In this document: positions 3,002 to 48,427 of the stretch, in pieces
Layout: the number at the start of each line of letters is the position of its first letter
How positions within the stretch are numbered: position 1 is the first letter of the stretch
Source: a virus
Direction: 5' to 3' (one strand)
Length of the DNA stretch: 64,000 nt
IMG/VR virus record: IMGVR_UViG_3300040801_001025
Span: 20,499-84,498 of that record
Program-made: the position numbers and the translations under genes
Notes under the pieces: model-generated
The model's database searches: none
What the model was told of the DNA's origin: nothing
What the model saw: only the letters and a program-made list of their open reading frames with translations

Positions 3002-4702
3002 ATGCACAATAAAGACAATGAAACATTCATAGCACAATATAGAGCGGCCCTTGCCGCAAAACTTTCCCGTCAAGAGTTTGCGGAATACCTTGGCATTCTA
3101 CCTGAAAGCGTTTTACGCAGACGACTAAGTATCAAAACTTCCACTGGCCTTGACCTCGCATTCCTTCCACATGAAGATAATTATTCCGGTGTTGATCTTG
3201 ATAAGATCACCGTCTTTGAAGAAAAATTCAAAGAACTTATTGAAAAGAATGCTGGTCCTAAGACTATCAAGAATAACGACAGACAAGGTGTGTACGTGTT
3301 CGTAGCTGCACAGAATGCAACGCCGGTACATGAAGGTTTCTGGGCGACTCTTTTACAGTATATTGAATGTCGTCACGGTGAACTCAACGTCATTCCGTAT
3401 CGCTATAAAAACCCTACTTCCATTTACACAGAACACAGCAAAGAACTAGATTACTGGTGGCCGTGTCTTGAACCATATTTACTAGATCATAAGCTAAAGC
3501 TGTGCAAAGGTCTACAAATTCTTGGTCAGATCAAAATGCAGCCAACCGCGACCAATCCGTTGTCTGGATTCGATGGATTTACTGGCGAAGACTCTGCAAT
3601 TCTTGGTCATCCGAAAGTTCAACTTCGTACCGTTGCAACGCCAAGTAAGAGACTTCCAAAAATTCTAGCAACGACAGGTGCATGTACTGTACCGAATTAT
3701 ACTGATTCTAAGGCTGGACACAAGGGTAGGTTCCACCACAATCTCAGCGCATTAGTTGTTGAAGTTGATAATGACAAGTTCCATATTCGTCATATACATG
3801 GCGAGGACGATGGGTCGTTCTATGACCTTGATTACTATTATACGTCTACAGGTCGAACCAAATACGGTCGAACAGCCGGATTGGTTCCGGGTGATATCCA
3901 TGCCGAGTTCTTGGATGAAAAAGTAGATCAGGCAACATTCCGTGGTTCCGATTCTATTATGGAAGTATTGAATCCAGAAGTTCTGGTAATACATGACGGC
4001 GAAGACTTTTATCGTCGTAACCATCATCACAAAAATAATGACATCCTCGCTTACGGTAAGCATCACTATGGGCGCAACAACGTAGAAGAAGGATTACAAA
4101 TTACGGCTGATTTCTTTGATAGGGTTTCACGTCCTGACACATTAACCTTGGCAGTTCGTGCAAATCATGACGAAGCTTTTGATCGTTGGCTACGTGATGC
4201 TGATCCAAAGATTGATCCCGAAAACGCTAAATTCTATTACTATATGAAGTATCATCAGCTTGACAATGTTCAGAGAACTGCAACTGGTTTCAAAACTATC
4301 AATGCTTTTGAATTCTGGGCAAAGAATCCGATGGATCAGCGTGGTATTACATCTGAGACTGTCAAGTTTTTGAAGCGTGATGAAAGCTTTGTGGTTGGTG
4401 GTATCGAGATTGGTTTCCATGGCGACATTGGCAACAACGGTGGCCATGGTAGCTTGAAATCTTACACCAAGATTGGTCCAAAGGTAGTTATCGGCCACGG
4501 CCATTCTCCGGGTATTGAAGATGGTGCATATCAGGTTGGTGTATCAGCTAGATTAGATTTAGAGTATGCCGTAGGACCGTCAGGATGGCTCCATACGCAC
4601 TGTGTAATATACCCTAATGGCTCGCGTACCCTTCTCAATGTAATCAACGGAGAGTGGCGTGCAAGCTTCTATGACAGGGAAGATGAGCTTCTAGCTGCGT
4701 GA
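3002..4702 (+). CDS. Metallophosphoesterase resembling phage T5 A1 (DNA transfer) protein
   Basis: 566 aa, RBS AAGGGAC. The C-terminal half carries calcineurin-like phosphoesterase motifs in order: GDIH (D298, H300), DGED, ANHDEAF (N388, H389, D390), FHGDIGNNGG and GHGH (H499, H501). Residues ~20-45 (LSRQEFAEYLGILPESVLRRRL) look like a helix-turn-helix. Length and the mix of an N-terminal DNA-binding-like segment with an atypical phosphoesterase core recall T5 A1 (556 aa), needed for host DNA breakdown and second-step transfer in T5. That similarity is from memory and was not tested by alignment. Position just before gp17 could instead suggest a nuclease linked to packaging or DNA processing. 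Confidence 0.6.
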   Translation: MHNKDNETFIAQYRAALAAKLSRQEFAEYLGILPESVLRRRLSIKTSTGLDLAFLPHEDNYSGVDLDKITVFEEKFKELIEKNAGPKTIKNNDRQGVYVFVAAQNATPVHEGFWATLLQYIECRHGELNVIPYRYKNPTSIYTEHSKELDYWWPCLEPYLLDHKLKLCKGLQILGQIKMQPTATNPLSGFDGFTGEDSAILGHPKVQLRTVATPSKRLPKILATTGACTVPNYTDSKAGHKGRFHHNLSALVVEVDNDKFHIRHIHGEDDGSFYDLDYYYTSTGRTKYGRTAGLVPGDIHAEFLDEKVDQATFRGSDSIMEVLNPEVLVIHDGEDFYRRNHHHKNNDILAYGKHHYGRNNVEEGLQITADFFDRVSRPDTLTLAVRANHDEAFDRWLRDADPKIDPENAKFYYYMKYHQLDNVQRTATGFKTINAFEFWAKNPMDQRGITSETVKFLKRDESFVVGGIEIGFHGDIGNNGGHGSLKSYTKIGPKVVIGHGHSPGIEDGAYQVGVSARLDLEYAVGPSGWLHTHCVIYPNGSRTLLNVINGEWRASFYDREDELLAA

Positions 4703-4719
4703 CACATTTAAAATAAAGG

Positions 4720-4728
4720 GCTAAATAG
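4720..4728 (+). promoter_or_regulatory. T4-type late promoter, GCTAAATAG
   Basis: Variant late box 19 bases before the gp17 start. Predicted transcription start is about 4734, at the end of the first arm of the hairpin described next. Confidence 0.6.
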
Positions 4729-4753
4729 CCATAGGGAGAAATTTCTATGGCTA
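4726..4753 (+). promoter_or_regulatory. Start-codon hairpin of the large terminase gene
   Basis: TAGCCATAG (4726-4734) is complementary to CTATGGCTA (4745-4753), giving a 9-bp stem that contains the ATG at 4747, with the ribosome site GGAGA in the loop. RNA begun at the local late promoter would lack most of the first arm; read-through RNA would contain it. Confidence 0.6.
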
Positions 4754-6345
4754 GTAACTCTAAAGTAAAGACAGTTAAGAATAATCCGAATCTTAAAAGT
4801 GCGAATCAGGAAATTGAACTGACGTATGAACAGATTCAGGAATATGCGAAGTGTATGGATGACCCGATATACTTCATTAAAAAATATGTGTACATTACGC
4901 ACCCTGTACAGGGTCAGATCAAGTTTGATCTTTACGATTATCAAGAAGAGCTAGTCAAGAATTACCAGAATGAGAGAAACAATATTGTACTCTCGGCTCG
5001 ACAGACTGGTAAGACTGAAACATCCTCGGCCTATATGCTTTGGTTCTTATTATTCCAGAAGAAGAAAACAGTTCTTGTTGTTTCTAAGGATTTGGAGAGT
5101 GCCAAGGAAATTGTTAAGAAGGTTAAGGACGGATACGAACTCCTTCCACTTTGGCTAAAGCCGGGTATCGATCCAGACAACTGGAACAAAGAAGCAATTG
5201 AATTCGACAATGGTTCTCGTCTAGTTGCTAGAACAACTTCTGATGGTTCTGGTCGTGGTTTGGCTATTTCTCTATTGTACTGTGACGAGCTTGCATTCGT
5301 TCGCCCGCATATTCAGGATCAATTCTGGGATGGTGTTTACCCTACATTGTCTACTGGTGGTTCATGTATTATCACTAGTACGCCAAACGGCGATACTAAC
5401 TTGTTTGCTAAGCTTTGGAGGTCTGCTGAACTTAGTACTAAGCTAAAGGCAACAGAAACACCGGGCACCGAAGATTTGATGCCGTTCCATGCGACTCGTA
5501 TTTATTGGGATCAGCCACCGGGCCGCGATGAAGCATTTAAGAAAGAGAAGATTGCTGTTCTTGGAGAGCGTAAGTGGCTTCAGGAATATGAATGCGAATT
5601 CATCAGTAGTGACAATTCGCTATTTGACACTCGTGTTATTCAGGTTGAACAGCGTCGAGTAGAGAATATGAAGCCTGCTTTTGTTATCAACGGTGAGCAG
5701 GAATTCTATAAGCCTATTTCACAGGGCATGACTTACATTGTTGGAGTTGACCCTGCAACTGGAACAGGTGAGGACTATTCTGTAATAGAAGTATTCGAAT
5801 TCCCATCGCTAATTCAAGTAATGGAATATAGGGCTAACACTGTAAGTGAACATGTGTTATACTCGTATCTCAAGAAAGTACTTGGCTTCTTAGAACAATA
5901 TGCAGAAGAGATTTATTTCAGTGTAGAGAATAACGGTGTTGGTCGTGCTATGTGTGCATTGTATATGCAGGACGAGCGGCCACCTCAATTCTCTCATTTC
6001 ATGTGTGAACGTGGTAAAAATAAGCTAGGTTATACAACTACGAATGCCACTAAGCGTGAAGCTGCCATAAGATTCAAGAACTTTTTTGAACGTCGCGAAA
6101 TGACAATTCTATCACCTATTCTATTCAAAGAAATGAAAAGCTATATTAGGAAAGGTGATGGATTTGAAGCGCAAACTGGTGCAACTGATGATTGCATATC
6201 CGCAGTATTCATCATAATGCGAATGCTAGACGACATTGCGATGTACAACCCCCGTGCTTATGACAAGCTTTATAAGTTTGGAGAACAGTCTCGTGGTGAC
6301 GAATGGTATACCAATGATGACTTTATTCCGGGTGGAATGCTATAA
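4747..6345 (+). CDS. 17: Large terminase subunit, T4 gp17-like
   Basis: 532 aa. The packaging ATPase and headful nuclease that pumps DNA into proheads. Walker A is SARQTGKT (residues 83-90), Walker B LLYCDELAF with D180-E181, and the STPNGD coupling segment follows. The C-terminal RNase H-like nuclease has the GVDPATGTGEDYS motif (D335), ENNGVGRA and the closing ATDDCISA aspartates. Length and order match T4-like gp17. Transcribed from its own late promoter with a start-codon hairpin. Confidence 0.95.
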   Translation: MASNSKVKTVKNNPNLKSANQEIELTYEQIQEYAKCMDDPIYFIKKYVYITHPVQGQIKFDLYDYQEELVKNYQNERNNIVLSARQTGKTETSSAYMLWFLLFQKKKTVLVVSKDLESAKEIVKKVKDGYELLPLWLKPGIDPDNWNKEAIEFDNGSRLVARTTSDGSGRGLAISLLYCDELAFVRPHIQDQFWDGVYPTLSTGGSCIITSTPNGDTNLFAKLWRSAELSTKLKATETPGTEDLMPFHATRIYWDQPPGRDEAFKKEKIAVLGERKWLQEYECEFISSDNSLFDTRVIQVEQRRVENMKPAFVINGEQEFYKPISQGMTYIVGVDPATGTGEDYSVIEVFEFPSLIQVMEYRANTVSEHVLYSYLKKVLGFLEQYAEEIYFSVENNGVGRAMCALYMQDERPPQFSHFMCERGKNKLGYTTTNATKREAAIRFKNFFERREMTILSPILFKEMKSYIRKGDGFEAQTGATDDCISAVFIIMRMLDDIAMYNPRAYDKLYKFGEQSRGDEWYTNDDFIPGGML

Positions 6346-33251: not shown

Positions 33252-33280
33252 TTGACAACTCCTATAAATACACGTAAGAT
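33252..33280 (+). promoter_or_regulatory. Sigma-70 promoter with a late box nested in its spacer
   Basis: TTGACA (33252-33257), 17 bases, TAAGAT (33275-33280). TATAAATAC lies at 33263-33271 inside the spacer, so the NMN adenylyltransferase gene may be read both early and late. Confidence 0.6.
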
Positions 33281-33368
33281 ACACATAAAGCTGATGAGCG
33301 GAGTGCTCGACATACAGCTAGTGTTCGACTACAATCAGAACTATCCGAAGCACATAGGAGATATGGCA

Positions 33369-34457
33369 ATGGATCAAGCATACGATTTTATCGTCTACAT
33401 TGGGCGATTCCAACCGTTTCACGACGGTCACCTCGAAACTCTCAAACTTGCCGCAGAAACTGGTAAAGAAGTTATTGTTGTCATTGGCTCTGCTAATTCT
33501 GCACCGACTCCTAAGAATCCGTGGACGGCTATTCAGCGCCAAGAAATGATTGTTGAAGCAGCATTCGCTGCTGGTTTTGATGTTTCCAAACTCTCTTTCA
33601 TTCATGTTGAAGACCGTCGATACAAAGAATCCAAGTGGATTAGCTATGTACAAGGCACTGTTATGGACATTGTGCGTGCCAAGACTCGCAAACCTAATCC
33701 GTCTATTGCGTTAATCGGGCACGAGAAAGATTCATCTAGTTATTACCTTCGTCAGAATTTCCCTACGTGGAAATTTGTAGAGACAGGTCCGTATGTCAAA
33801 GAGAAAGGTGTTGGCAAAGTGGTTAGCTCTACAAAAATTCGTGAGCTTATGTTTGAGAACCACTTGGGTTATACCGAGAGTAATCTTCCGCCTGCTGTTT
33901 ACGAATGGCTGGACAAGTATACGCTGTCTGATGATTTTACTCGTCTGCAAGATGAATACCACTACATTCTTCAAGAAGAAAAGATTTATGAAGCTCTTCC
34001 GTATGGGATTACTTTTCAGACTGTAGATAGCGTTGTAGCACAGTCTGGTCATGTTCTTCTCGTCCAGCGTGGTAATCCATTGGGTTACGGGCTATGGGCG
34101 CTACCGGGTGTTCACCTTGCGCCGAATGAAACTTTGGAGCAGGCATCCATGCGTGCCGTGCTAACTGAAACAAATCTTGACGTGCCGCCAAAGGCTTTCA
34201 AAGGCTCTCTGGTGAGTAAAAAAGAATTTGATCACCCTAACCGCTCTTTGCGTGCAAGATTGACTACAGATCGAAATAGGACGCTTACGACGGCGTTCTA
34301 CTACAAACTTGACTCTTCTCATCCACTTCCGGTAAAGGGCCTTAAAGCTGGTGAGGGAATCTTGAAGGCATGGTGGTTCCCGTTCTCTGAAGTGTGGAGA
34401 ATGCGTGACCAACTCTTTGAGGACCATGCTGATATCCTTGACTACTTCATCGGATAA
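33369..34457 (+). CDS. nadM: Bifunctional NMN adenylyltransferase (NadM type) / Nudix hydrolase
   Basis: 362 aa from ATG 33369, chosen because TAGGAG sits 8 bases before it; ATG 33363 is too close. N-terminal half is the nucleotidyltransferase: YIGRFQPFHDGHL (HxGH-type site) and SSTKIREL. C-terminal half is Nudix-like, GLWALPGVHLAPNETLEQAS, with a degenerate Nudix box (RAVLTET replaces REUxEE), so hydrolase activity is uncertain. It joins ATP and NMN to make NAD+, using NMN from the NAMPT two genes on. Together they match the two enzymes of the phage NAD+ rebuilding route that counters NAD-depleting defences. Confidence 0.9.
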   Translation: MDQAYDFIVYIGRFQPFHDGHLETLKLAAETGKEVIVVIGSANSAPTPKNPWTAIQRQEMIVEAAFAAGFDVSKLSFIHVEDRRYKESKWISYVQGTVMDIVRAKTRKPNPSIALIGHEKDSSSYYLRQNFPTWKFVETGPYVKEKGVGKVVSSTKIRELMFENHLGYTESNLPPAVYEWLDKYTLSDDFTRLQDEYHYILQEEKIYEALPYGITFQTVDSVVAQSGHVLLVQRGNPLGYGLWALPGVHLAPNETLEQASMRAVLTETNLDVPPKAFKGSLVSKKEFDHPNRSLRARLTTDRNRTLTTAFYYKLDSSHPLPVKGLKAGEGILKAWWFPFSEVWRMRDQLFEDHADILDYFIG

Positions 34458-35259: not shown

Positions 35260-35286
35260 CTAAACTTGCACATAGGAGATATGGCA

Positions 35287-36738
35287 ATGAATAATGAAAT
35301 TAAAATTACTGATAATGTTATCTTGAACTGTGACACGTATAAAGTTTCACACTGGATGTTCATGGAAGAAGGCACGACCTTTTCTCAATCCTACGTCGAA
35401 CCCCGCGTGGGTGCCAAATACGACGAGATTGTATTCTTCGGTCTCCAAGGCATTCTCATGGATGAATTCATGAAGCCGGTCACCATGGAAATGGTTGATC
35501 AGGCAGAGGAATTCCTTGCCAAACACCTTGGTTCTACTGAAGCGTTTAACCGACGCGGCTGGGAAATCATTGTAAACGAATACGGTGGCTACCTCCCGAT
35601 TCGCATTCGTGCTGTGAAAGAAGGCACCGTGCTTCCGGTTGGTAATGCCGTCATCATCGTAGAATCTACGGACCCTCGTTTCAATACGGTGTGGTGCTCG
35701 TCCTACGTTGAAACGAAAATCATGCGTTCGTGGTATGGCTCGACCGTTGCAACGCACTCTCGCGAGATTACGAAGGCTATCCGTGAGGCTCTGAATCGCA
35801 CTGGCACCCCTGATCTTGCTAGCATGAAGCTGGTGGATTTTGGTAGCCGTGGTGTGAGCACGAAGCAGGAATCTATGGTCGGTGGCGCTGCTCACCTCGT
35901 GACTGGCACCAGCACCGATAACCTTCTTGGTATTGGATACGTCGAGGACGTTTACGGTTCCGAGAATGGTATGGCTGGTTTCTCTATTCCTGCAACGGAA
36001 CACAGCATCACGACTTCTTGGGGTGAACTTCGAGAGTTTGAATTCTTCAAGAACATTGTTACGAACATTCTGCCGAAAACCGGCATTGCATCTGTAGTTT
36101 GCGATACCTACAATCTCATGGCTGCAATCGAAATGTTCGGTGAACTTCGCGAAGACATTGAAAAAAATGGTGTCATTGTTATTCGCCCTGATTCTGGTGA
36201 TCCTGTTGAAATGACGGAAGCTGTGGTCCAGAAGCTTGACTCGCTTTTCGGCAGCACGGTCAATGATAAAGGCTTCAAGGTTTTGAACGATTGTGTACGT
36301 ATCATTCAGGGCGACGGTATTGATCTGGAAATGACCAAGGCTATTCTTGATAACTTTGAGCGTCTTGGCTACAGTGCAGATAATATCACCTTTGGTAGCG
36401 GTGGCGGCTTGCTTCGTAAGGTAACTCGTGATACTATGCGCTTCGCAATGAAAGCTTGCCATGTCATTGTCGACGGTGAAGCTCGTGACATTCGTAAAGT
36501 TCCATTGACTGATCCGAGTAAAGCGTCGAAAGCTGGTCGTTTGACGCTGGTGCAAGACACTGTGACTGGCAAGTACAGAACTGTCAATCAGCACGATACT
36601 ATTCGCGCTACCGAGGTTGACGCAATGGATACTGTCTTTGAGAATGGAAGACTACTCCGTATGCAAACTTTTGATGACATTCGTGAACGCGCTGCTATCA
36701 AGGACTGTCCCCGGCGACTTGATAATGTAGCAGCCTAA
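35287..36738 (+). CDS. nadV: Nicotinamide phosphoribosyltransferase (NAMPT)
   Basis: 483 aa from ATG 35287. Makes NMN from nicotinamide and PRPP. Family features include the TDNVILNCDTYKVSHW opening, LVDFGSRGVSTKQES, the GTSTDNLLG segment, SIPATEHSIT, VIRPDSGDPVE (phosphate and ribose binding) and the FGSGGGLLRKVTRDTMRFAMKA region. Full length for the family. Its 22-base leader is identical to that of the NMN adenylyltransferase gene. A long antisense open frame over it is a shadow. Stronger codon bias (more GC) than neighbours suggests high expression or separate origin. Confidence 0.95.
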   Translation: MNNEIKITDNVILNCDTYKVSHWMFMEEGTTFSQSYVEPRVGAKYDEIVFFGLQGILMDEFMKPVTMEMVDQAEEFLAKHLGSTEAFNRRGWEIIVNEYGGYLPIRIRAVKEGTVLPVGNAVIIVESTDPRFNTVWCSSYVETKIMRSWYGSTVATHSREITKAIREALNRTGTPDLASMKLVDFGSRGVSTKQESMVGGAAHLVTGTSTDNLLGIGYVEDVYGSENGMAGFSIPATEHSITTSWGELREFEFFKNIVTNILPKTGIASVVCDTYNLMAAIEMFGELREDIEKNGVIVIRPDSGDPVEMTEAVVQKLDSLFGSTVNDKGFKVLNDCVRIIQGDGIDLEMTKAILDNFERLGYSADNITFGSGGGLLRKVTRDTMRFAMKACHVIVDGEARDIRKVPLTDPSKASKAGRLTLVQDTVTGKYRTVNQHDTIRATEVDAMDTVFENGRLLRMQTFDDIRERAAIKDCPRRLDNVAA

Positions 36739-37083: not shown

Positions 37084-37286
37084 TGATGAGCCTTAAAATT
37101 CAGAAGAAAAAAGTAGTAGTCTACACTGAAGAAGACATTTACCAGATGATTATTGCGCATACCAAGAAGCATGTAGATAGCAGTCTTGGTTGCTATGTTG
37201 AAGGCATTAATGCAAGCTGGTTCACTGATCAGGATGGAACCAAGAAACTTATGGTCAGTTGGCCCGATGGGGGAAGAGAACGATGA
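37083..37286 (+). CDS. Small protein of a three-gene family, 67 aa
   Basis: Starts on the preceding stop (TAATG). Contains the shared VYTEEDIYQMIIAH unit and a C-terminal beta hairpin (INASWFTDQDGTKKLMVSW). Ends with an ATGA overlap to the next member. Function unknown. Confidence 0.7.
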   Translation: MMSLKIQKKKVVVYTEEDIYQMIIAHTKKHVDSSLGCYVEGINASWFTDQDGTKKLMVSWPDGGRER

Positions 37287-37480
37287 ATAAAACAAAAAGA
37301 ACTGTAACCGTAACGTCTGAAGAGGTTGAATACGTTATATCTTATGATGAGCTTGCTCAGATTCTTCGTAGAGAACTTAACGAAACTGGTCGTGTAAGTT
37401 GCGGAGGTTATCAATCACCTACTATTAGGGGTGTAATTTTTAAAGTAAGTAGAGAGATAGAAAGTGCAAGTTCTGTCTAG
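37283..37480 (+). CDS. Small protein of a three-gene family, 65 aa
   Basis: Start MNKTKRTVTV at 37283 with GGAAGAG upstream, not the 8-residue extension. Shares the TVTSEEVEYVISYDELAQIL unit, then GVIFKVSREIES. Last of three overlapping small genes. Function unknown. Confidence 0.7.
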   Translation: MNKTKRTVTVTSEEVEYVISYDELAQILRRELNETGRVSCGGYQSPTIRGVIFKVSREIESASSV

Positions 37481-37496
37481 GAAAATACTTTAGATT

Positions 37497-37964
37497 ATGA
37501 AAATAATTAATGATTCAAAATGGCAGGACCGATTCATTAAGCTGGCGAGAATGGTGGCTAGTTGGTCTAAGGATAGATCAACTCAAGTCGGTGCTGTTAT
37601 TGTTACAGGTGATGGACACCCTCGCTCTTTTGGGTTCAACGGAATGCCACAAGGCGTAAATGATGATATTGATGAGCGGCATGAGCGTCCAGAAAAGTAT
37701 TTTTGGTTTGAACATGCTGAAAGGAATGCGATATACTTGGCAGATGGTGATCTAAAAGATTGCGTTATGTTTGTAACACATATGCCGTGTGCTGATTGTG
37801 CTCGTGCCATTATTCAAACAGGAATTGCGCACGTTGTGGTTGACGCGCAGGGGAAATTGAGTCATGGTACTCAACTATCAGATTCATGTACGGCAGCGCG
37901 AGAAATGTTTTTTGAGACTGGCGTTTATTTGATTGAAAGATATGTAAGGGATGATGCAAAATGA
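37497..37964 (+). CDS. cd: Deoxycytidylate (dCMP) deaminase
   Basis: 155 aa. Converts dCMP to dUMP for dTMP synthesis. Zinc site HAERNAI and PCADCARAI are both present, with the proton-shuttling Glu in HAE. N-terminal ARMVASWSKDRSTQVGAVIV is typical. The ribosome site is weak. Operonic with a P-loop kinase by ATGA overlap. Confidence 0.95.
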   Translation: MKIINDSKWQDRFIKLARMVASWSKDRSTQVGAVIVTGDGHPRSFGFNGMPQGVNDDIDERHERPEKYFWFEHAERNAIYLADGDLKDCVMFVTHMPCADCARAIIQTGIAHVVVDAQGKLSHGTQLSDSCTAAREMFFETGVYLIERYVRDDAK

Positions 37965-42057: not shown

Positions 42058-42558
42058 GTGAAATTAATTGAAGTTGCATTGCTTGAGAAAGAAACACAGA
42101 AACCGGGAACGTTTGTAGGAGCACGACCATCCAAAGAATCAATGAATATGATTCAGGATCAAATTAAAAAGCTTGATGTTCCTAACCCCATCGACAAAGG
42201 CAAGATGCACATCACTGTCATTTACTCTCGCAAACACTTACCAGATTTTAAAGCACGGGGTAAACTAGATAAACCTATTATCGCAAAACCGGATAAACTT
42301 CACATATTCCCTGCACGAGACAGTAAGAATGCTCTCGTTCTAAAAATCAAATGTCCAGAGCTAACAAAACGTCATGAAGAAATCATGGACGAACATGAAG
42401 CAACCTATGACTTTGACGAATACCGTCCGCATGTGACACTATCCTATGATGCGGGTGATTATGACCTATCCAAGTATAATGCTGATGACTTTAGTGATAT
42501 TGAAATCACTGAAGAGTATGATACTCCACTTAAAACTGATTGGCTAGTTAAAAAATGA
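42058..42558 (+). CDS. 2H phosphoesterase, candidate Acb1-like anti-CBASS enzyme
   Basis: 166 aa from a GTG start with AAAGGGA upstream. Two HxT motifs, H51-I-T53 in KMHITVIYS and H125-V-T127 in YRPHVTLSY, define the 2H fold. T4 Acb1 (gene 57B, 152 aa) has the same layout and cuts the cyclic nucleotides that activate CBASS. Spacing between motifs here (74) is close to that of Acb1 (69). Other 2H enzymes, such as RNA ligase-like or tRNA phosphodiesterases, share these motifs, so substrate is unproven. Overlaps the next gene by ATGA. Confidence 0.7.
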   Translation: MKLIEVALLEKETQKPGTFVGARPSKESMNMIQDQIKKLDVPNPIDKGKMHITVIYSRKHLPDFKARGKLDKPIIAKPDKLHIFPARDSKNALVLKIKCPELTKRHEEIMDEHEATYDFDEYRPHVTLSYDAGDYDLSKYNADDFSDIEITEEYDTPLKTDWLVKK

Positions 42559-45276: not shown

Positions 45277-45565
45277 AGAAAAAGCTGATGCACTAGGTGT
45301 TCCACTGATCCCGGTTAAAGATAATTGGGGAAAGAAGCCTGTTCCCTACGATAATCCTATTATTGCAGTATGCGGTAAATGTGGTATCGAACTCCGGCAG
45401 ATTATGCACTTTGCATGTGGTCATAGTGATTGCCCTGCTGGTCTTGGCCCTGTACCATTGAAAGCATATGGTGATCTTGTCATGCAATATCAGACAAAAG
45501 ATACTGCTGAAATGTATGATGCCATGGATGTCTTTACTTCTGAAGGATGGGATGGTATTAAATGA
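45263..45565 (+). CDS. Hypothetical zinc-ribbon-like protein, 100 aa
   Basis: TTG start at 45263 is supported by GGAGG nine bases upstream. CGKCGIEL followed by MHFACGHSDC gives paired Cys/His sites for zinc. Overlaps both neighbours; the stop shares ATGA with the reductase gene. Function unknown. Confidence 0.7.
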   Translation: MSQFKEKADALGVPLIPVKDNWGKKPVPYDNPIIAVCGKCGIELRQIMHFACGHSDCPAGLGPVPLKAYGDLVMQYQTKDTAEMYDAMDVFTSEGWDGIK

Positions 45566-46089
45566 AACTTTCAATGATTCTAGCGTGTGATTCTGAGCTT
45601 GGAATTGGTAAGAATAACGCCTTGCCATGGAACTATCCCGAAGACTTGAAGTTCTTCAAGGAAACTACAGCGGGTGCAACTTGTGTCATGGGTCGGTTGA
45701 CTTATGAAAGCATGGTTAAACATATCAAACCTGCTGATGGTGCGCCGCTCCTTAAAGGACGCAAGTGTGTGGTGGTCAGTAGTAACATTTACTTTAGAAA
45801 TAAAGCTTCTGAACGACCGGGTACGATTGCAATTAGTGAGCTAGCAGAGCTTGACACACTAGAAGATATAGGAGATAATGTCTTCATTATCGGAGGTGCC
45901 AAGCTTTACGAAGAAGGTATCAAGATGGCAAAGTACGTTTACATCACAGATATTCCCGGTACTTACGGATGTGATGTAGCATTAAGTGATAGGTTTGTAA
46001 GTATTCTGACTATGAAATTTGAGAATGATTGGCAACAAGTTGTTCCGAGTGGTCTAATGTTTACTAGATTTAAAAGAAATACGAGATAG
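45562..46089 (+). CDS. frd: Dihydrofolate reductase
   Basis: 175 aa. Regenerates tetrahydrofolate for thymidylate synthesis. MILACDSELGIGKNNALPWNYPEDLKFFK (catalytic acid region), CVMGRLTYESM, VVVSSN and VFIIGGAKLYEEG are the ordered DHFR motifs. Works with the dCMP deaminase encoded at 37.5 kb. Last protein gene before the RNA island. Confidence 0.95.
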   Translation: MKLSMILACDSELGIGKNNALPWNYPEDLKFFKETTAGATCVMGRLTYESMVKHIKPADGAPLLKGRKCVVVSSNIYFRNKASERPGTIAISELAELDTLEDIGDNVFIIGGAKLYEEGIKMAKYVYITDIPGTYGCDVALSDRFVSILTMKFENDWQQVVPSGLMFTRFKRNTR

Positions 46090-46091
46090 TA

Positions 46092-46227
46092 TCAAGAGGG
46101 ATAATATTACGAGTGGTTACTGCGGAGCCGGTTTACGCTAGCGTTGAACCAGTAACCTGAGTGTGGGAAATTAGAGCAAAGAGTGACACACCTCAAGCGA
46201 ATGACTCTAATACTCGTACCCTTTTGA
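46092..46227 (+). ncRNA. Candidate structured RNA with pseudoknot, class not recognised
   Basis: Nested and contiguous helices read by eye: 46092-46100 with 46219-46227 (9 bp, one G-U); 46108-46114 with 46212-46218 (7 bp, stacked on the first); hairpin 46115-46122 with 46150-46157 (8 bp); hairpin 46158-46165 with 46187-46195 (8 bp, one bulge); and a pseudoknot 46170-46176 with 46205-46211 (7 bp), whose second strand abuts the outer stem. Helices meet without gaps, unlike chance pairing. It contains no convincing reading frame. The 3' end overlaps the tmRNA promoter, so it is probably a separate RNA; being a leader or part of the tmRNA precursor is possible. Confidence 0.55.
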
Positions 46228-46234
46228 TAAATAG
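46226..46234 (+). promoter_or_regulatory. Late-type promoter for the tmRNA acceptor piece, GATAAATAG
   Basis: ATAAATAGCAGTA here is the same 13 bases as at the HNH gene promoter (34476-34488). Predicted start is near 46239. Confidence 0.6.
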
Positions 46235-46301
46235 CAGTATATGGTTGTATGATCTTTTCTGGAGAAATTTCGACACGCGGGTTCGAATCCCGCCACCTCC
46301 A

Positions 46302-46437
46302 CTAAGCACTAGCGATAGCTAGATGCTACCTCCCAGTAACCATTGGGGGAGGGCTACCAGAATGCCAAAGAGTTACATGGGTGTTAGACGTGTCTCCTGT
46401 GTAAACGACATTCTGGATAGTCTGGACACGTCTCTAT
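46302..46437 (+). other. Intervening segment of the permuted tmRNA precursor
   Basis: Should be cut out in maturation. It folds densely: hairpin 46306-46326 (GCACTAGC/GCTAGATGC), hairpin 46329-46352 (CCTCCC/GGGAGG), and an H-type pseudoknot of 46357-46364 with 46409-46416 (8 bp) and 46386-46394 with 46425-46433 (9 bp). The pseudoknot ends four bases before the mature 5' end of the coding piece. Confidence 0.6.
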
Positions 46438-46519
46438 GGGGGTGACTTGGAATCGACCGGGATTAAGCAAGGACGAGTGACAACCCGATATGTAAATCGT
46501 TAAAACACTTAAACTAAAT

Positions 46520-46564
46520 GCAAATGATGCATTCTATGATGAGGAAATTGCGCTAGCAGCGTGA
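46520..46564 (+). CDS. tmRNA proteolysis-tag reading frame
   Basis: Codons from GCA at 46520 give ANDAFYDEEIALAA, then TGA at 46562. The AND start and ALAA end are the hallmarks of ssrA tags; ALAA-type ends are read by ClpX and ClpA. There is no ATG or ribosome site, as expected, because translation resumes on the tmRNA. The first alanine may come from the charged tRNA-like part, adding one residue. Confidence 0.88.
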   Translation, partial: ANDAFYDEEIALAA

Positions 46565-46602
46565 TCCCTCGGAGGGTGACGCCTTCTTACCAAATAGTCA
46601 GA

Positions 46603-46626
46603 CAAAGGCACCTTCGGGTGCCTTTG
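46603..46626 (+). terminator. Rho-independent terminator after the tmRNA
   Basis: CAAAGGCACC, TTCG tetraloop, GGTGCCTTTG, then TTATAATT. Confidence 0.9.
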
Positions 46627-46632
46627 TTATAA

Positions 46633-46663
46633 TTGACACTCTAGTTTGTCTATGCATAAATAC
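46633..46663 (+). promoter_or_regulatory. clpP promoter region: TTGACA plus late box CATAAATAC
   Basis: A perfect -35 TTGACA (46633-46638) lies 17 bases before ATAAAT, and the same bases form the late box 46655-46663. In the RNA, ATCAC/GTGAT (46668-46672, 46678-46682) and CATAAA/TTTATG (46655-46660, 46684-46689) can fold with AAGGA in the loop and the start codon in the stem. Confidence 0.6.
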
Positions 46664-46686
46664 AACTATCACAAGGAGTGATTTTT

Positions 46687-47364
46687 ATGCGAAACGATAG
46701 CGCAGTTGAAACACAAGAATTGCTGTTAGGTCAAAGTCTATTTGAAAAGCCTATCAAACACTATAAACAAATCATACCCGTAACAATTCATCATATCTAC
46801 ATCAATGGTGAAATTGAAGAAGAAGCAGATCGTTACATTGACATGCTAAATGAAATTAAGTTAGCAGAAGCACATGATCATGTCTTTATCTACTTAAATA
46901 CTCCCGGTGGAAGCCTTTCTACTACAATTCAAATCATGTCAGCCATTAAGCAATCTCAAGCCACGGTTACTACGGTAATTGAAGGCGATGTGGCATCTGC
47001 TGGAACATTTATCTTCCTATGTGGCGACGATTACATTGTACACGACAACTGTTCCTTCATGGTCCATAACTACAGTCATGGACCTTATGGTAAAGGGCAC
47101 GAGGTTGCACAAAGAGTTAAATTTACTGAGCAGCATTATCGCCAGTTGATCATCGATATTTATAAAGACTTTTTGACTGATGAAGAAATTGAAGATGTCC
47201 TCAAAGGCATGGATGTGTGGTTAAACTCTGAACAGGTTCGTGAACGTATTGAGACGAAAGTCGCTCGCGAAGAAGAAGCCATTCAAGAAGCCTTATCACA
47301 AGCTGCCGAAGCTGCTACACCAAAAAAGCCCAGAGGTCGAAAAAAGTCTAGCGACACAGAATAG
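46687..47364 (+). CDS. clpP: ClpP-like serine protease
   Basis: 225 aa from ATG 46687; the GTG at 46678 overlaps the ribosome site AAGGAG. Catalytic triad S104 (GDVASAGT), H127 (FMVHNYSHG) and D176 (MDVWLNSEQ) is intact, with the NTPGGS oxyanion-region motif. ClpP forms a barrel that needs an unfoldase such as host ClpX or ClpA, which also select ssrA-tagged proteins. The C-terminal ~30 residues are an Ala/Lys-rich tail (ATPKKPRGRKKSS) not typical of bacterial ClpP. It follows the phage tmRNA directly. Confidence 0.93.
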   Translation: MRNDSAVETQELLLGQSLFEKPIKHYKQIIPVTIHHIYINGEIEEEADRYIDMLNEIKLAEAHDHVFIYLNTPGGSLSTTIQIMSAIKQSQATVTTVIEGDVASAGTFIFLCGDDYIVHDNCSFMVHNYSHGPYGKGHEVAQRVKFTEQHYRQLIIDIYKDFLTDEEIEDVLKGMDVWLNSEQVRERIETKVAREEEAIQEALSQAAEAATPKKPRGRKKSSDTE

Positions 47365-47383
47365 AGTATGATATCATGGATGT

Positions 47384-48427
47384 ATGGAATACTCTAGCAT
47401 TGAAGAACTCGTAAGGTCCAATGTCGTCTTCTCAGGAAGCGTTTCAGCTAGTGGATGGGAACGCTTGTATTGTGAAGTATGCGGCGATGGAGCCCGTACA
47501 AAAGGCCCACGAGGGGCGTTTCTCTTTGAGGGGGACGCCTGCTTCTACAATTGCTTTAACTGTGGCATAGAAGGCAATTTTGACCCCAATCGTGAGGTTC
47601 CCTGTTCAAAGCACATGTGGGAAATTCTCACATCTTTTGGTATTCAACCCCGCGAATTCAATAAACTGGCCGAAGATGCTAAGAAAGCAAATGGTATTAA
47701 GGTTGTTAAGCGTCAGCCTTTAATACTTCCTAAGATCGACCCTATTCCTGATTACATGAAACTTCTTCGTGAGTTTCCAAAGGACAGTTTGATTGCTGAC
47801 GAAGCACGACGGTTTCTGTGGACAAAATACAAGATGACTGAAGACGATTACCCGTTCTATCTGTCTACGGGTAAATCTAAAGAAGATCACTATATTGCCA
47901 AAGCACTACGTCCTAGAATTATTATACCTGCAATGTATCATGGTGATATGCTGTACTGGCAAGCTAGAATATTTGTAGGCGAGAGCAAGTCTAAATACAT
48001 CAGTGCTAGTGTTAAGAATGCCACCAGTGTGGTATTCGGTATGGATAACTTAACACGCCATAGGCATCGTCCTTTGTACATTACAGAAGGGTTCTTTGAC
48101 TCTTGGCATGTTGGTGGTGTCGCTACAATGACCAATAGAATGAAAAAAGGTCGTATCGATACAATCAACCGCAGTGCTCGTGATAAAGTGATTTTACCTG
48201 ATCAAAACGATGATGGTATGAATCTGGCAGATCAAGGAATAGAACTTGGTTGGGGCGTATCTTTGCCGAAAATCTATCCAGAAACAGACATTTGTGGCGC
48301 TATCAATCGCTTCGGAAAACTTTATGTGATGAAATCTATCATCGATAATACTTATCATGGTGATAGAGCCAAAATATCATTAAAAATCTTCAAAAACGAA
48401 TATGGGCTGACATCCTCACATAAATAG
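47384..48427 (+). CDS. 61: DNA primase, T4 gp61-like
   Basis: 347 aa. Makes RNA primers with the gp41 helicase. N-terminal zinc finger YCEVCGDG...FYNCFNCG (C-x2-C...C-x2-C), then the RNA polymerase basic region, TOPRIM LYITEGFFDSWHVGGVATMT and the acidic VILPDQNDDG. Length matches T4 gp61 (342 aa). Confidence 0.93.
   Translation: MEYSSIEELVRSNVVFSGSVSASGWERLYCEVCGDGARTKGPRGAFLFEGDACFYNCFNCGIEGNFDPNREVPCSKHMWEILTSFGIQPREFNKLAEDAKKANGIKVVKRQPLILPKIDPIPDYMKLLREFPKDSLIADEARRFLWTKYKMTEDDYPFYLSTGKSKEDHYIAKALRPRIIIPAMYHGDMLYWQARIFVGESKSKYISASVKNATSVVFGMDNLTRHRHRPLYITEGFFDSWHVGGVATMTNRMKKGRIDTINRSARDKVILPDQNDDGMNLADQGIELGWGVSLPKIYPETDICGAINRFGKLYVMKSIIDNTYHGDRAKISLKIFKNEYGLTSSHK
48419..48427 (+). 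promoter_or_regulatory. T4-type late promoter, CATAAATAG
   Basis: Overlaps the primase stop; 42 bases before the next start. Confidence 0.65.

Follow-up and report, generated by a model that had tools for sequence, protein, structure and literature searches.

Stalled ribosomes are released by an RNA known as tmRNA, which also marks their incomplete proteins for degradation. A permuted, two-piece form has been reported from the Alphaproteobacteria, Betaproteobacteria and Cyanobacteria (PMC9004378). A survey of phage tmRNAs found tmRNA in 402 of 18,146 phage genomes, and 53 of the 133 unique ones were two-piece, mostly from marine or aquatic settings (PMC9004378). In addition, a copy in Menderavirus Yut2 is annotated as SsrA, and two-piece tmRNA in phages is hence already published and not new. 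Melnitz, a Methylophilales phage, and its relatives carry a permuted tmRNA (ssrA) within a T4-related myophage genome, as does the locus described here, and the Melnitz type is alpha-like, is described as having an early promoter and is linked to a glutamine riboswitch (PMC9004378).

We describe a permuted tmRNA gene at 46239-46625 of a 64,000-nucleotide stretch of DNA (the window), taken from a virus record of 84,498 bases (IMG/VR IMGVR_UViG_3300040801_001025). Judging from its sequence, this is probably a functional phage-encoded tmRNA of the beta type that is expressed late and uses the SmpB and alanyl-tRNA synthetase of the host. The window features between 42058 and 48427 that are given below lie on the plus strand.

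The permuted tmRNA gene of the window

A first-pass annotation had proposed a permuted two-piece tmRNA at this site and suggested a comparison with covariance models. ARAGORN made a single permuted call (tmRNA*) at 46212-46655 with the tag ANDAFYDEEIALAA, and the Rfam model RF04321 (tmRNA_permuted) matched over its full length at 46243-46564 with 98.5 bits (E 6e-18; gathering cut-off 47 bits). RF01850 (beta_tmRNA) also matched at full length, at 46187-46629, with 90.9 bits (E 4e-26; cut-off 84 bits), whereas the Rfam alpha tmRNA model reached only 29.5 bits, under its cut-off of 50. The proposal is thus upheld by all three matches; by these model scores the tmRNA is of the beta type, and an alpha-type origin was rejected. 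A blastn search of 46090-46680 against 50,697 phage records returned no near relatives. An Rfam search of 46085-46680 (E<=5) gave no match to the glutamine riboswitch that marks a Melnitz-type ssrA, and a riboswitch or ribozyme within or near the gene was rejected, there being no Rfam match. The leader at 46113-46222, which by eye had looked like a pseudoknotted RNA, was likewise rejected (z -0.92, no crossing helix).

Along the gene, the T-arm and acceptor 3' strand come first, followed by a 136-nt intervening sequence and then by the acceptor 5' strand, D-region and tag frame. The acceptor (tRNA-like) piece spans 46239-46301 according to ARAGORN and Rfam, its 5' end being approximate, and it includes the T-arm GCGGG-TTCGAAT-CCCGC (46277-46293, from sequence and covariation), the acceptor 3' strand CACCTCC (46294-46300, from pairing and covariation) and the discriminator A46301 (A73). 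The mRNA piece opens with the acceptor 5' strand GGGGGTG (46438-46444), placed by Rfam, pairing and covariation. All seven acceptor pairs form, and G3 of the 5' strand pairs with U (G3.U70), which is the alanine identity. Next come the D-region, one strand of a helix whose partner is in the acceptor piece, and a CGAU..AUCG hairpin (46445-46499, all from the Rfam alignment), and then the tag frame called by ARAGORN at 46520-46564, with codons at 46520-46561 and the stop TGA at 46562-46564. The tag ends in an LAA-type degron, and in the Rfam alignment the resume-codon context TAAATGCAAAYGA matches the beta model. The first-pass account of these parts was accurate in its coordinates, both for the stretch from T-arm to discriminator (46277-46301) and for the acceptor 5' strand and tag, in the seven acceptor pairs with G-U at pair 3, and in the ALAA end of the tag. 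A hairpin with a UUCG loop, ACAAAGGCACC UUCG GGUGCCUUUGU (46603-46627), falls within the last stem of RF01850 and is likely the 3' end of the gene; a consensus terminator scan called no terminator at this hairpin under its rules. In the Rfam alignment the variable helix of the acceptor half diverges from the consensus, and CTA rather than CCA follows the discriminator, so that CCA must be added.

We found covariation when ten phage permuted tmRNAs were aligned. All 12 pairs of the acceptor and T stems are standard (100% paired), a percentage that is somewhat favoured because stems were extracted only if almost fully paired and one row was placed manually; the variety of pair types is less affected by this. 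These stems hold 22 double changes against a shuffled mean of 4.5, a number reached in none of 500 shuffles, and eight of the twelve pairs have changed on both sides. G3.U70 is kept in 10/10 of these RNAs, while pairs 4-6 vary. C-terminal LAA-type tags are retained in most relatives, and the gene has persisted in phages so diverged that their ClpP proteins share only ~37-56% identity. One further permuted tmRNA, at L043:1500-1560, has an odd T-arm (GGGAG-AGTCGGAG-CTCCC) without TTCGA and was left unparsed, though it scored 104.9 bits with RF04321.

The intervening sequence

The 136-nt intervening sequence (46302-46437), which is expected to be removed from the RNA, is strongly structured, with a minimum free energy (MFE) of -47.7 kcal/mol and a z score of -2.93 against shuffles. 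A 9-bp helix between AGACGUGUC (46386-46394) and GACACGUCU (46425-46433) crosses the MFE structure, and none of 400 shuffles contained a helix as long; its 3' strand stops 4 nt short of the acceptor 5' strand. A fold forced to hold this helix is nearly equal in energy (-47.4 against -47.7 kcal/mol), and the helix therefore either forms a pseudoknot on the MFE structure or belongs to a second, competing fold. In the relatives that were parsed, the intervening sequence measures between 16 and 189 nt, and in L123 it reaches ~580 nt. The idea that its structure is common to the group was rejected, since the other long ones mostly close by a stem at or near their ends and have no comparable crossing helix.

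A new finding is that one relative, L123 (IMGVR_UViG_3300023049_000222), bears an endonuclease gene within the intervening sequence of its tmRNA at 4471-5075 (PHROG endonuclease/HNH, 1e-18). The end of this gene overlaps the acceptor 5' strand, the acceptor half having been placed by eye because ARAGORN makes no call at this site and Rfam puts that half in the wrong position. The presence of such a gene in the cut-out segment shows that the segment tolerates insertions, and tmRNA genes of this kind escape current search tools.

Two other loci are recorded here as separate observations. In L015 (IMGVR_UViG_3300042309_001896, 3209-3445), the 189-nt intervening sequence holds an open reading frame (ORF) that continues into the mRNA piece and resembles the last 54 residues of PHROG 4098, a T4-group protein family. 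In a relative without tmRNA, a free-standing endonuclease gene lies near clpP (L125:4082-4687, minus strand), beside the inverted repeat GTGGAGGTAAC / GTTATCTCCAC.

Late-type promoter motif and linkage to clpP

The terminase of this phage is nearest to that of the Xanthomonas jumbo phage XacN1 (57%), followed by the Stenotrophomonas jumbo phages CM1 and RAS14 (53%), and the phage also has UvsX, a terminase of the T4 superfamily and T4-type late promoter motifs. The earlier description of a T4-like phage therefore stands in the broad sense of T4-related, on UvsX, terminase and late motifs, but by terminase it is an XacN1/Rak2-like jumbo relative and not a close relative of T4. Elsewhere in the window, genes for a cytidyltransferase/NUDIX-like protein and a nicotinamide phosphoribosyltransferase (33252-34457 and 35266-36738) are likely an NAD-salvage pair.

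Ahead of the acceptor piece stands the T4-type late-promoter-like motif GATAAATA (46226-46233), and a second late-type motif, CATAAATA (46655-46662), stands ahead of clpP; both are assigned from the enrichment and placement of ATAAATA. This heptamer occurs 34 times in the window against 15.8 expected, an about twofold excess seen in 0/100 shuffles, and an ORF starts no more than 60 nt downstream of 13 of its 23 plus-strand copies, where chance would give 7%. The window thus has TATAAATA-like boxes at gene starts above chance, as in T4-type late promoters, which agrees with the first-pass assignment of a late-type promoter to the acceptor piece. A weak sigma-70-like site overlaps GATAAATA, and such sites are no more numerous than in shuffles. 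Among relatives, ATAAATA is found 48-66 nt before the T-stem in 5/6 parsed tmRNAs of the ClpP-linked clade, including L058, L057, L104 and L059, and it also precedes the acceptor piece in L123. No ATAAATA stands ahead of the tmRNA in L054, XacN1 or the other parsed phages, the count being 0/9 among parsed phage permuted tmRNAs outside the ClpP-linked clade. A putative T4-type late promoter before a permuted tmRNA, recognized by its motif and common to the window and five relatives, is new.

The next gene after the tmRNA encodes a ClpP-family serine protease (clpP, 46678-47364; PF00574, 6.4e-17), a type of enzyme that degrades tagged proteins. Its predicted fold is that of ClpP (AlphaFold pLDDT 86; Foldseek to ClpP, E 3e-11), and the triad S107/H130/D179 is invariant among 24 aligned proteins. 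Upstream of the tmRNA lies a dihydrofolate reductase (DHFR) gene (45562-46089; PF00186, 1.6e-29), and a primase-like gene (47384-48427; PHROG 47, 7e-27) is syntenic with clpP in relatives. Together with an Acb1-like anti-CBASS gene (42058-42558; PF23474, 2.8e-36), these are members of a conserved block with the order DHFR - Acb1 - (ligase) - tmRNA/ClpP - primase.

A scan with a single ClpP protein as query had found no matches, and an alignment-based scan of IMG/VR identified 65 ClpP-family loci, chosen regardless of tmRNA. Permuted tmRNA is present in seven of them, representing five lineages (the near-identical L054-L056, and L057, L058, L059 and L104), and ARAGORN found none in the remaining 58. 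The seven fall in one eight-row ClpP clade with XacN1 and RAS14, a clade with moderate support (89/88) in which L059 forms a long branch. A further locus, L123, was added through a scan for the primase. We therefore report as new that seven related lineages, the window and L123 included, keep tmRNA and a triad-intact ClpP in one gene block, usually adjacent. In the window, L054, L058 and L123, clpP is the gene immediately after the tmRNA, which precedes it at ~0.4 kb in L057 and at 2.7 kb in L104; in L059 it lies on the other side, after clpP, and in XacN1 the two are about 49 kb apart. The tmRNA loci outside the ClpP-linked clade had no clpP nearby, though several of these loci are short. Our literature search found no paper connecting phage tmRNA with phage ClpP, and an overview of jumbo phages treats phage ClpP without mention of tmRNA (PMC7824862).

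Possible role, origin and comparison with known systems

We infer the following course of expression, processing, CCA addition, alanylation, SmpB-dependent trans-translation and tag-directed proteolysis. Transcription from the late-type promoter just upstream would yield a single precursor, from which tRNA-processing enzymes of the host would excise the intervening sequence, and CCA would then be added. Pairing in the acceptor stem and in the helix below the D-region would keep the acceptor and mRNA pieces joined. The acceptor piece would be charged by the host alanyl-tRNA synthetase via G3.U70 and brought to stalled ribosomes by host SmpB, and the tag ANDAFYDEEIALAA would direct the product to ClpXP-type proteolysis. 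The role of the gene is most likely to keep ribosomes free and to clear broken products late in infection. A working tmRNA is indicated by the full-length Rfam and ARAGORN calls, the covariation with G3.U70, the resume context, the LAA-type tags, the promoter motif in relatives and survival across divergent phages. A search of the phage records, the majority of them incomplete, revealed no SmpB, and the phage tmRNA would thus depend on the host.

A joint tag-and-degrade role with the neighbouring phage ClpP is plausible but unproven. In this reading the phage would supply both the tag and the peptidase subunits, coupled through ClpX of the host or a different unfoldase, so that proteins are remodelled or recycled in late infection; we regard this only as a possibility. 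It is favoured by the confinement of the tmRNA-bearing ClpP loci to one clade (0/58 of the others by ARAGORN), by the intact triad, by late-type motifs on both genes and by L059, where the two genes remained neighbours although their order changed. However, DHFR, Acb1 and primase belong to the same conserved block, and the pairing may simply reflect inheritance of that block as a whole; tmRNA and clpP are separated in L104 and widely so in XacN1, and beyond this clade no clpP was seen near a tmRNA locus. In addition, no ClpX zinc domain was found in the phage records searched, most of them incomplete. Still more tentatively, this jumbo-phage clade might carry a self-made tag-and-destroy unit, in which a late permuted tmRNA adds its own degron and the phage ClpP processes the tagged products, the pair being kept through rearrangement and the intervening sequence, because it is excised, giving endonuclease genes a place to insert without harm (L123). 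The linkage of the tmRNA to ClpP and to late-type promoters in one phage clade provides a concrete test of whether tag and protease are delivered jointly by phages.

It is unlikely that the RNA acts mainly as a decoy that titrates SmpB or competes with host tmRNA. There is a precedent in phage DS6A, whose acceptor-only tmRNA inhibits the tmRNA of Escherichia coli (PMC4131195, PMC11915505), and the hosts of some phages with permuted RNA do not belong to the lineages from which this form has been reported. Nevertheless, a full tag frame, stop, LAA-type end and resume-codon context, none of which a decoy needs, are conserved across divergent phages.

The first-pass annotation also saw in the permuted form a sign of capture from, or tuning to, a host with permuted tmRNA, and this was not supported. 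Beta-type permuted tmRNAs are carried by XacN1 of Xanthomonas and by DLP6 and Menderavirus of Stenotrophomonas; on the published distribution of permuted tmRNA, on which this argument rests, both genera lie outside the reported lineages, yet their phages have the permuted form, and tuning to a permuted host does not follow. The occurrence of the form in these phages bears on how it has spread. A recent capture from the present host, kept by chance, is improbable: beta is the best-scoring clade model, but divergent versions in the same gene block of related phages indicate that the gene is old in this phage lineage. Moreover, the unusual D-region GGAATCGACNGG had eight matches among 84,980 species (one genome each), and 0/5 of the loci examined by ARAGORN were permuted tmRNAs; L142, a bacterial contig with the D-region pattern, was rejected as a tmRNA by ARAGORN and Rfam. 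The permuted model had no match in CM1, RAS14 or records G015, G017 and G018, and the tmRNA is thus dispensable. Finally, a decaying relic or chance match is highly improbable given E-values of 6e-18 and 4e-26, compensatory changes and an intact tag, despite the off-consensus variable helix and the CTA where CCA is expected.

Among isolated phages, XacN1 (AP018399.1) is the closest. Its permuted tmRNA (123 bits, tag ANANTFDYALAA) is present in both copies of the terminal repeat, at 37231-37530 and 356026-356325, and L038:2840-3253 is recorded with them. The first copy is unannotated in AP018399, and the text of the XacN1 paper does not mention tmRNA. Like that of the window, the XacN1 tmRNA is beta-type, with G3.U70, a structured intervening sequence and a tag ending in ALAA; unlike it, the XacN1 gene lies among tRNA genes in the terminal repeats, near GOLLD RNA and not beside clpP. 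This GOLLD RNA (RF02032, 227 bits) is ~1 kb downstream of the first tmRNA copy. The tmRNAs of Menderavirus (Moby and Yut2) and DLP6 are also beta-type, but lie between tRNA genes in the former and near them in the latter, in both cases with neither clpP nearby nor ATAAATA. The betaproteobacterial permuted tmRNA (RF01850) agrees with the window in piece order, acceptor stem and resume-codon context, whereas the window gene has a longer intervening sequence, a divergent D-region GGAATCGACC and a phage late-type motif in place of TATAAT. Compared with the Melnitz type, the tmRNA of the window differs in its beta-type character, its late-type promoter motif, the lack of a riboswitch match and its position next to clpP.
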